Shown piece after piece: positions 14,076-27,917 of a stretch of DNA of 64,000 nucleotides. The position numbers and the translations under genes are program-made. Every line of letters begins with the position of its first letter. The first letter of the stretch is position 1. Source of the DNA: Acidiphilium multivorum AIU301 (GTDB taxonomy: Bacteria; Pseudomonadota; Alphaproteobacteria; Acetobacterales; Acetobacteraceae); assembly GCF_000202835.1 (NCBI RefSeq), contig NC_015186.1, positions 3,505,501 through 3,569,500 on the forward strand, written 5' to 3'. The notes below the pieces were generated by a model that ran no database searches, was not told the DNA's origin, and worked only from the letters and a program-made list of their open reading frames with translations.

Positions 14076-14160
14076 CGGGCACTCCTTCGTTCGCGACTTT
14101 AGAGAATGGAAGCGCCGAAGTGAACGGCCCCAGCCGCACGAGCCGATTTCTTGATGGATC

Positions 14161-14190
14161 AAAAAAAATGGCGGCACTTGCGTGCCGCCA
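14161..14190 (-). terminator. strong intrinsic terminator upstream of lutB
   Basis: On the minus strand a perfect stem (GGCGGCAC with GTGCCGCC, 14170-14177 and 14182-14189, extended by one A-T pair) with a 4-nt loop is followed within one or two bases by eight T (14161-14168). No coding gene ends just upstream of it on this strand. It therefore ends either a small RNA or a lut leader transcript. Confidence 0.85.
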
Positions 14191-14249
14191 AGTTTAGGGA
14201 GGAAACGTCCAAGAAAGCAAACAGAGCGAACGGATCGCTGTGTTGCTGA
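14161..14249 (-). ncRNA. candidate small RNA or lutB attenuator leader
   Basis: A promoter at 14255-14283 and the terminator at 14161-14190 bound a transcript of about 88 nt with no plausible reading frame. Its 5' half can form a small stem (AGCGA with TCGCT). The middle has an unpaired pyrimidine stretch TTTCCTCCCT (about 14195-14204), complementary to a Shine-Dalgarno sequence. Anti-Shine-Dalgarno CCTCC motifs are typical of trans-acting small RNAs in alphaproteobacteria. The unit also sits directly upstream of lutB in the same direction, so a read-through/attenuation role for lutBC is equally possible. No Rfam family was recognised. Confidence 0.55.
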
Positions 14250-26204: not shown

Positions 26205-26280
26205 TGGCTCCCGGAGTAGGACTCGAACCTACGACCGAGCGGTTAACAGCCGCTTGCTCTACCAGCTGAGCTATCCGGGA
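26205..26280 (-). tRNA. tRNA-Asn (anticodon GTT)
   Basis: The 76-nt gene includes an encoded CCA. The 7-bp acceptor stem TCCCGGA/TCCGGGA is perfect, the D arm contains AGCTCAGCTGGTAGAGC, the anticodon loop reads CTGTTAA, and the T loop is TTCGAGT. It lies between the MFS gene and tRNA-Leu, all on the minus strand. Confidence 0.97.
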
Positions 26281-26406: not shown

Positions 26407-26702
26407 TGGTGGCCCTCCCCGGACTCGAACCGGGATGCCCGCAAGGGCGCGCGATTTTCGTACCACTTCGGCTTTCGCCGCCCCATGCGGGTTCGTGGTC
26501 TGGACTGTCCCTTCACCATACCCCGGCTTTCGCCGGAGGTTTAGGTGCCGCCCGTCCAGTCTCTACACCTTCCCGTTTCCGGGCTTGGCTCGGGATTAGC
26601 AGTGAAGCCTTCCCCGACTTTGAGCGGTTCTACGCCGGGCATTTCCACCCGGGCACCCAATTTACGATGAGTCGCGTTCGTCTACCATTCCGACAGAGGG
26701 CC
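26407..26702 (-). tRNA. tRNA-Leu (anticodon CAA) interrupted by a group I intron
   Basis: The 5' exon (26669-26702, 34 nt) carries acceptor GGCCCTC, D arm TCG-GAATGGTAGA-CGA and anticodon-stem strand CGCGA followed by CTC. The 3' exon (26407-26458, 52 nt) carries AAAA, the stem strand TCGCG, a 15-nt variable arm (GCCC TTGC GGGC), T arm CCCGG-TTCGAGT-CCGGG, acceptor GAGGGCC, A and an encoded CCA. Joining them gives an 86-nt class II tRNA with loop CTCAAAA, so the anticodon is CAA. The long variable arm and sequence identify leucine. The anticodon assignment depends on splicing between positions 34 and 35. Confidence 0.92.
26459..26668 (-). ncRNA. group I intron (IC3-like, Azoarcus type)
   Basis: This 210-nt intron lies inside the anticodon loop and ends in the required G (26459). 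The core elements closely resemble the Azoarcus tRNA-Ile intron: GGTGTAGAGACTGGACGG (R/P7, near 26550-26567) and GGGACAGTCCAG (S, near 26499-26514). Visible helices include P2 (CCGGGTG/TGCCCGG), P6a (CCCG/CGGG), P8 and P9, each capped by GAAA. A guide stretch TTGGGT near the 5' end pairs with the last four 5'-exon bases ACTC and the first two 3'-exon bases AA. There is no internal reading frame, so it lacks a homing endonuclease. It should self-splice, but that is inferred. Confidence 0.92.
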
Positions 26703-26904: not shown

Positions 26905-27357
26905 ATGCCTGATATGTCCCGCGCCGCATGGCTTGGCGTCCTCGCCCGGGCGACATGTGCTGAACTGGCGGCCTGCCTCGCCGCCGTGCCGCCTTTGGCC
27001 GGCTTCGTGAGGCTGCGCGGCCCGGAAATCGGCATGTCGATGGTGCGCGGGCGGATCGGCGGCGGCGGCCCCCCATTCAATCTCGGAGAGATGACGATCG
27101 CCCGTTGCAGCATCCGCGACGAGGCGGGCCGCATCGGCCACGGCTACGCGGCGGGGCGTGACCGCGATCTCGTCGAACTGATCGCCAGGCTGGACGCGGT
27201 ATTGCAGGACGAGGCGCTTCATCCGCTCTACCATGAAGCGGTCGTCGCGCCGCTGGCGGCGGCGCAGACTGCGCGCCGGGCGGCGGCCGAGGCCCGCGCC
27301 GCGGCGACGGAAGTGCGCTTCTTCACCCTCTCGACGATGCGGGGCGATCTGCCATGA
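26905..27357 (+). CDS. phnG: C-P lyase core subunit PhnG
   Basis: This 150-residue protein is a structural subunit of the carbon-phosphorus lyase core complex (PhnGHIJ). With PhnI and PhnL it converts ATP and a phosphonate to the ribose 1-phosphonate triphosphate. The family pattern includes a start like RAAWLGVLARATCAEL, MSMVRGRIGGGGPPFNLGEM and IRDEAGRIGHGYAAGRD. ATG 26914 has GAGAG 9 nt upstream and is an equally likely start. It is the first gene of the operon, just after a palindromic operator, and overlaps phnH by 4 nt. Confidence 0.92.
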   Translation: MPDMSRAAWLGVLARATCAELAACLAAVPPLAGFVRLRGPEIGMSMVRGRIGGGGPPFNLGEMTIARCSIRDEAGRIGHGYAAGRDRDLVELIARLDAVLQDEALHPLYHEAVVAPLAAAQTARRAAAEARAAATEVRFFTLSTMRGDLP

Positions 27358-27917
27358 CCCGCCTTGAGACCGGTTTCGCATCGCCTCTGGCGGCGCAGGC
27401 CTGTTTTCGCGCCCTGCTCACCGCGTTTGGCGCCCCGGGCCGGATCGTTGCGCTGCCCCACGTGGTTGAACCGCCCGCCGGGCTTTCGCCGGCTGCCGCC
27501 GCCGTTCTTCTGACCCTCGCCGATCCCGCGACGGGCGTCGCCCTTCCGGCACAAGCCCCCGCGCGGGATTGGCTGGCGTTCCACACCGGCGCGCCGCTCG
27601 CCGCGCCGGCGGATGCCGCATTCTGCGTCGCCGCCGCGCGGCCGGCCCTCGCGTCTCTGCGACAGGGCAGCGAGGAGGTTCCGGAAGACGGCGCAACCCT
27701 GATCCTCGATGTTCCGGCCCTCGATGCCGGCCGCCGCTGCCGGCTGGCCGGGCCGGGCCTGGCGGCGCCGGTGACGGTGCCGCTGCCGGTGGATGGCGCC
27801 TTCGTGGCCGAATGGCGGGCGCAGATGCGCCGCGCGCCTTGCGGCATCGACGTCCTGCTCTGCGCCGGCCACCGCGTGATTGCCCTGCCGCGCAGCCTGT
27901 CCATCGAGGAGGCCTGA
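27354..27917 (+). CDS. phnH: C-P lyase core subunit PhnH
   Basis: This 187-residue subunit of the PhnGHIJ core has no known catalytic site and stabilises the complex. Recognised by position and by the N-terminal FRALLTAFGAPGRIVAL and the C-terminal PCGIDVLLCAGHRVIALPRS. Overlaps phnG as ATGA; phnI starts 1 bp after its stop. Confidence 0.9.
   Translation: MTRLETGFASPLAAQACFRALLTAFGAPGRIVALPHVVEPPAGLSPAAAAVLLTLADPATGVALPAQAPARDWLAFHTGAPLAAPADAAFCVAAARPALASLRQGSEEVPEDGATLILDVPALDAGRRCRLAGPGLAAPVTVPLPVDGAFVAEWRAQMRRAPCGIDVLLCAGHRVIALPRSLSIEEA

Follow-up and report, generated by a model that had tools for sequence, protein, structure and literature searches.

The 64,000-nucleotide stretch of the Acidiphilium multivorum AIU301 genome analysed here (contig NC_015186.1, positions 3,505,501 to 3,569,500; hereafter the window) carries, on the minus strand at 26407–26702, a class II tRNA-Leu(CAA) gene that is interrupted by a 210-nt group I intron. 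The 5' exon (26669–26702, 34 nt) ends with C34, the C at 26669, from which the intronless genes of two other genomes, G201 and G178, continue as CTCAAAATCGCG. The intron (26459–26668) ends with a terminal G at 26459, and the 3' exon (26407–26458, 52 nt) starts with A35 and comprises, according to sequence reading and ARAGORN, the long variable arm, the T arm, A73 and an encoded CCA. In its predicted spliced form, the RNA displays all the features of a tRNA-Leu(CAA), namely, the class II fold, the CAA anticodon, A73 and CCA. By reading, its 10-25 pair is U-A, the commoner type having G-C at this place, which we take as a sign that the tRNA is under constraint. The downstream neighbour on the same strand is a tRNA-Asn(GUU) gene called by ARAGORN (26205–26280), which served as a syntenic anchor for comparison with genus mates. 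Beside the split gene, on the other strand, lie the phosphonate genes phnG and phnH (Pfam; 26905–27917 and onward), probably representing the start of a phn operon. Elsewhere in the window, Rfam models matched a class A RNase P RNA (118–509, 299 bits) and a small RNA of the mmgR/suhB type (14154–14225, 52.7 bits).

The whole gene was delimited with the intron mode of ARAGORN and by full-length relatives, and the intron with ARAGORN, the Rfam group I model RF00028, an alignment and covariation. With intron lengths of 150–300 allowed, ARAGORN returned tRNA-Leu(caa) at c[26407,26702], with a 210-nt intron at 34/35, as the sole intron-containing tRNA of the window; these are exactly the coordinates and strand given for a split tRNA-Leu in the original prediction, and the insertion at 34/35 that it proposed is borne out in addition by the intronless genes of G201 and G178. 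As three intron-tRNA calls in total were also obtained from 20 dinucleotide-shuffled windows, the ARAGORN call is insufficient as proof by itself. Default ARAGORN and the Rfam tRNA model at its gathering score both missed the split gene and reported tRNA-Asn alone in the whole window, so that the gene does escape standard tRNA finders, as had been anticipated. RF00028, whose gathering score is 50, matched positions 26482–26679 at a lower value, 31.8 bits (E 1.9e-6 for 411 bases searched); in the whole genome, this model has no other match with E up to 10. A poor covariance score had been named beforehand as an argument against the intron. We rejected the score as counter-evidence, since all seven sibling tRNA-intron loci that were scored also fall below 50 (28.9–45.7 bits); the value is low, yet normal among siblings, and thus reflects the Rfam cut-off and not a defective intron. 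The gene is held to be real chiefly because near-identical intron-bearing genes and intronless versions with the same exons exist, and these comparative genes, together with the covarying helices and the RF00028 match, uphold the presence of a group I intron in Leu(CAA).

The structure of the intron was analysed in an alignment of 18 out of 22 extracted introns. RNAalifold proposed 58 pairs, with two-sided changes in 30 of them. In a 55-pair structure including the P7 pseudoknot, 96.7% of the cells were paired, and the helices of the P4-P6 and P3-P8 core were 80–100% paired in the 18 introns. Two-sided changes occurred in 28 of the 55 pairs, a number reached by none of 500 shuffles, and pairing fell to 32–46% when the partners were slid. 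The names given to the helices of the window intron are presumptive. P7, the pseudoknot helix expected to hold the guanosine-binding site, has four possible pairs and is invariant in 18/18 introns; given that P4, P6 and P7 never vary, these helices are supported by homology and not by covariation. The 5' strand of P7, GACU, belongs to the R segment (26558–26561, minus strand; alignment columns 144–147) and its 3' strand, AGUC, to the S segment (26503–26506, minus strand; columns 212–215). GAAA caps are read from the sequence on P2 (hairpin at 26635–26652, loop at 26645–26642), P6a, P8 and P9 (loop of the last hairpin at 26473–26476); the R and S segments, the four GAAA loops and the terminal G described in the original prediction are therefore all present. 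Upstream, the fold and the alignment show P1 (26655–26672), in which A31 C32 U33 C34 (26672–26669, numbered by reading) face the guide sequence GGGU (26658–26655); a guide pairing with the 5' exon and a terminal guanosine, here at 26459, are both hallmarks of group I introns. The fold energy (z of -1.92, with 12 of 200 shuffles equally good) was considered too weak to serve as support. Small size, location in a tRNA anticodon loop and GAAA loops make it likely, by analogy, that the intron is of the Azoarcus type, subgroup IC3.

With regard to the borders, an intronless gene (GGCCCTCTGTCGG...) is found in G201 (97% over 87 bases) and G178 (93%), reading GACTCAAAATCGCG, and these same-exon copies join GACTC directly to AAAATC. 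This comparison allows the intron to start either directly behind C34 or one base later, behind A35, in which case its last base would be A; the former border was chosen on account of the conserved terminal G. In the fold, P1 consists of A31-U, C32-G, U33·G, C34-G and A+1-U, and the UU at 26660–26659 could form P10 with A35 and A36. A U·G pair is the textbook 5' splice-site signal of group I ribozymes, its role being known largely from mutants. It has been termed critical (PMC8395846). As the 5' exon of the split Leu(CAA) gene ends with the wobble base of the anticodon, the ribozyme would have to use the Watson-Crick pair C34-G in its place, a point that the original prediction did not raise. 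A survey of natural exceptions to U·G was not found in open-access full text, and novelty is not claimed for the C-G pair.

In the 18-intron alignment, the splice-site pair (columns 6 and 21) is U·G in 16 introns and C-G in two, both from Leu(CAA). Among 113 introns with resolved borders, 106 follow a 5' exon ending with U and seven one ending with C, the latter being exactly the Leu(CAA) 34/35 introns, although the motifs behind this count are specific to each host and prescribe the final base of the exon. All seven have C34-G at the splice site instead of the usual U·G pair; that they nevertheless belong to the group follows from their homologous core and from the tree. The counts leave out L047 (Ns), L057 and L059 (partial), L079 (borders not resolved), the duplicate loci L010, L056, L058, L073, L080, L103 and L104, as well as L138, L174 and L197, which the motif script did not match and two of which were resolved with U in a freer border search. 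The latter, allowing any base, resolved 70 of 79 further loci, which had been hand-picked among the family matches listed as high-scoring and spread over genera, and are thus a non-random sample. For 69 of the 70, one border choice yielded an ordinary tRNA with U, L152 being the odd one, and some loci also offered alternative borders ending in other bases. The labels of the ARAGORN intron mode were rejected, as their borders are shifted, giving for instance Phe(gaa) or His(atg) for Leu(UAA), Thr(GGU) and Arg(CCU) genes; borders were taken from the exon stems and the final G.

One base upstream of the splice site, U33·G is present in P1 of six of the seven Leu(CAA) 34/35 introns (P1 by reading, three being folded), where it could misdirect the cut. 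The ribozyme might thus obey the U·G rule and cut after U33, losing C34 and leaving a six-base anticodon loop and no working tRNA; indeed, a separate clade of Leu(CAA) introns at 33/34 uses U33·G and receives C34 from the 3' exon. In the seven 34/35 introns, however, the 3' exon starts with AAAA and not CAAAA, and without a leading C a cut after U33 is ruled out as the productive site. Moreover, the seventh intron, L076, whose tRNA exon differs from the window type (70–76% alike), has U33-A in P1 and hence C-G with no U·G alternative to use, at identical borders. The exons are also 91–99% identical among the six intron copies of the window tRNA type, while the intron loops vary. We consider cleavage after U33 very unlikely, and retain C34 as the splice-site base.

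The usual reader of the U·G splice-site pair is J4/5. Its two flanking bases are G/U in 7/7 Leu(CAA) 34/35 introns, as against 0/65 in Arg(CCU) and 0/20 in Leu(UAA) 34/35 introns. The same G/U flank was scored by script in four of the five Leu(CAA) 33/34 introns, the fifth being mis-anchored and G/U by eye, and also in 2/2 introns from UAG loops, 2/5 from Thr(GGU) and 1/5 from Leu(UAA) 33/34. The script anchored on P2 for this one Leu(CAA) 33/34 row and possibly for a few other 'aaacc' rows; in mis-anchored rows, the other strand is not U, with the exception of the Leu(CAA) row. The G/U flank may be part of the splice-site change, as a co-adaptation. A tie to C-G itself is made less convincing by the same flank in the 33/34 introns, where U·G is retained, and shared descent could explain part of the distribution. 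Two genomes, G147 (L152) and G060 (L160), harbour the intron lineage of the window in a similar tRNA whose anticodon loop departs from the standard, being CCU/AGUG in one case and one base too long in the other; an ordinary Leu(CAA) gene, itself intact, lies a short way downstream. Both have U at the splice site, in agreement with the notion that the CAA anticodon imposes C. In these two genomes, where the host tRNA has apparently decayed or become redundant, the splice-site base may have turned back to U.

The split gene is the only Leu(CAA) gene detected in the window genome. None of the 43 typed tRNA genes reads CAA, Leu(UAA), (UAG), (GAG) and (CAG) being intact. A wide pattern for intact Leu(CAA) was positive in 6/6 control genomes and in none of the four intron-bearing genomes of the family; two further matches, in G201 and G060, were taken as chance. 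An earlier, narrower pattern gave the same result in the four intron genomes and matched 22 of 31 others, missing the intact Leu(CAA) of G060 and G147. A second intact Leu(CAA) gene, which the original prediction had put forward as one half of a possible refutation, was thus found neither among the 43 typed tRNAs nor by pattern search. Ile(GAU) and Ala(UGC) tRNAs, usually located in the rRNA operon, are also absent among the 43; the nine-contig assembly or the search may miss genes. Under wobble rules, the intact Leu(UAA) could read UUG, so that the cell may survive without tRNA-Leu(CAA). Leu(CAA) being dispensable in principle, the locus might be a decayed pseudogene with a dead intron, akin to the counterparts in G060 and G147, whose loops are odd and which have an intact Leu(CAA) nearby. 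The conserved core, the paired tRNA stems and the retention of the anticodon in all four genomes in which no other copy was detected make this very unlikely.

Introns of this type are widespread in the family: a covariance model (E up to 1e-6) detected them in 185 of 397 genomes and 56 of 102 genera, and the DNA of the window matched 21 of 60 genomes, its own included. The hosts of the 113 introns are Arg(CCU) (65), Leu(UAA) at 34/35 (20), Leu(CAA) at 34/35 (7), Leu(CAA) at 33/34, Leu(UAA) at 33/34 and Thr(GGU) (5 each), Arg(UCU) (2), the window-type exon with a UAG loop (2), Lys(UUU) (1) and Thr(UGU) (1). The 33/34 insertions, all with U33·G, occur in Leu(CAA) at L074, L083, L086, L091 and L093, and in Leu(UAA) at L077, L081, L084, L085 and L088; related introns in Thr(UGU), Thr(GGU), Lys(UUU) and Arg(UCU) genes are represented by L042, L038, L045, L195 and L204. 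Leu(CAA) hosts are rare: a search pattern for split Leu(CAA) genes, which derives from Leu introns already known and is bound to miss others, matched 4 of the 397 family genomes, that of the window among them, and 20 stretches in a collection of 84,980 species. Eleven of these 20 are split Leu(CAA) genes, of which five carry the window tRNA type (three uncultured Rhodopila, Belnapia arida T18 and MAG SKS3.bin60), one is L076 and five have the intron at 33/34. The others are six Leu(UAA) 33/34 introns, including L079 with its 3' border not resolved, and three intronless chance matches.

In a 37-row tree of the core, the seven Leu(CAA) 34/35 introns form one clade (95/98) and the Leu(CAA) 33/34 introns another (99/96), with 21 of the 34 inner branches open. 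Two clades at two positions imply, if the tree is right, that Leu(CAA) was entered at least twice. A tree of 113 rows places both UAG-loop introns within the Leu(CAA) 34/35 group (91/100), so that the seven do not make up a clade by themselves there, and the sister of the group is poorly supported (31/0). An origin from an Arg(CCU) intron, with its guide GGG, was also considered and rejected, as the core trees do not join the Leu(CAA) group with the Arg rows.

The window exon type is shared by three genera, with introns 90–99% and exons 91–99% alike over gap-free columns. In the genus mates G005, G006 and G010, the Leu(CAA) exon is of another type, and congeners in the two other genera differ too; a tRNA exon that three genera share and that is unlike those of their congeners suggests whole-gene transfer, which the original prediction did not consider. 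Around the locus, Leu(CAA) is divergent from tRNA-Asn in G006 and G010, and parallel with it in the window and G004. An MFS gene beside tRNA-Asn is common to the window and G010 (80% over 372 residues) and unmatched in the compared stretches of G006 and G004, and a glycosyltransferase gene beyond Leu is common to G010 and G004 (70% over 451). It seems that the resident Leu(CAA) gene was replaced or inverted at one place. The shared MFS and glycosyltransferase genes, placing the split gene where the resident one lies, would also suit vertical descent only, in which the genus inherited the gene and gained the intron while its exon drifted, the gene as a whole never having been transferred. Such a history is nevertheless unlikely, given the near-identity of both exon and intron across three genera whose genus mates have different exons, and the divergent, rather than parallel, orientation in G006 and G010. 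We favour replacement by a transferred intron-bearing gene that would have spread as a unit between genera.

Carriage of the window gene by a phage or plasmid was considered and rejected: the pattern for this gene had no match in viral contigs, none of the plasmid or phage records reached 80% coverage of the query, and the four matches examined are other tRNAs. In Belnapia arida, the split Leu(CAA) adjoins genes for GmtX and a GmtZ-like integrase (L087:4160–7953; GmtZ below the curated cut-off), and this neighbourhood is a possible carrier of the split gene. In other respects, 1272 of 72,556 plasmid records hold a stretch resembling the window intron, mostly from enterobacteria and with 76.7–77.2% identity among the matches listed, indicating that intron-bearing tRNA genes occur on plasmids. 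One of them, pCTX-M3 (L233:3001–3217), has near aac(3)-IId what reads as a tRNA-Leu(UAA)-like gene, absent from the annotation and containing a group I intron; ARAGORN labels this gene tRNA-Stop. A Lys(UUU) with a 238-nt intron is called near the integrase gene of Gordonia phage Daredevil (L235), and an uncultured phage of 595 kb (L236) contains an intron core and a tRNA-like 3' half.

Taken together, it is highly probable that the only detected Leu(CAA) gene of this genome is split at 34/35 by an intron, probably of subgroup IC3, that is spliced through C34-G. The transcribed intron would fold and bind the 5' exon via P1 (ACUC with GGGU), guanosine is predicted to cut after C34, and the exons would then join at A35, restoring the CAA loop. 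Self-splicing, accurate cleavage after C34 and not U33, and use of the tRNA are what we infer from the sequence. A bolder reading, which we put forward tentatively and at somewhat less than even chances, is that this ribozyme lineage reset its 5' splice-site rule from U·G to Watson-Crick C-G in order to inhabit the CAA anticodon, most of its members having to ignore a U·G decoy one base off. The introns constitute a natural series within one family, with U at the site in 106 of 113 and C in seven, two of the U cases lying inside the C lineage. This natural test of site choice by a ribozyme makes the question of other splice-site marks directly testable. In practical terms, default tRNA finders can skip split genes hosted by Leu(CAA), Thr(UGU), Thr(GGU), Lys(UUU) and Arg(UCU), and some genomes thought to be devoid of a tRNA may therefore have one.

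That group I introns can reside in the anticodon loops of tRNA genes is well established (PMC3984707, PMC8450103, PMC7717549), and tRNAscan-SE is, according to its authors, not designed to detect tRNAs containing them. In chloroplasts, a survey reported group I introns in 12 of 20 tRNA isotypes, Leu not being excluded (PMC9840617). No bacterial group I intron in tRNA-Leu(CAA) came up in the open-access full text searched. The IC3 ribozyme of the Azoarcus tRNA-Ile reportedly measures about 200 nt, with GAAA-capped P2 and P9 and insertion at 36/37. This ribozyme, named in PMC3984707, is similar to the window intron in size and GAAA caps, but the host and position differ, and the P9 region of the window intron has an extra hairpin. 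Closer in taxonomy, an Arg tRNA of Acetobacteraceae is split by a sequence homologous to group I introns (PMC4596401), and BbgpI, the intron of Bartonella bacilliformis tRNA-Arg(CCU), has been reported to self-splice (PMC7717549). The alphaproteobacterial Arg(CCU) introns are of similar size and likewise sit in the anticodon loop, and those of relatives align directly with the window intron. However, in the relatives examined, they are inserted at 36/37 after U36, with U at the splice site, where the window has C34. The Leu(CAA) and Leu(UAA) introns at 33/34 share the tRNA family and the guide GGGU with the window intron, but lie one base upstream and keep U33·G, those of Leu(CAA) forming a separate clade. 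Finally, the 20 Leu(UAA) 34/35 introns found here resemble it in position, tRNA-Leu host and related core, yet their 5' exon ends with U34, whereas the window gene, with its CAA anticodon, presents C34-G.
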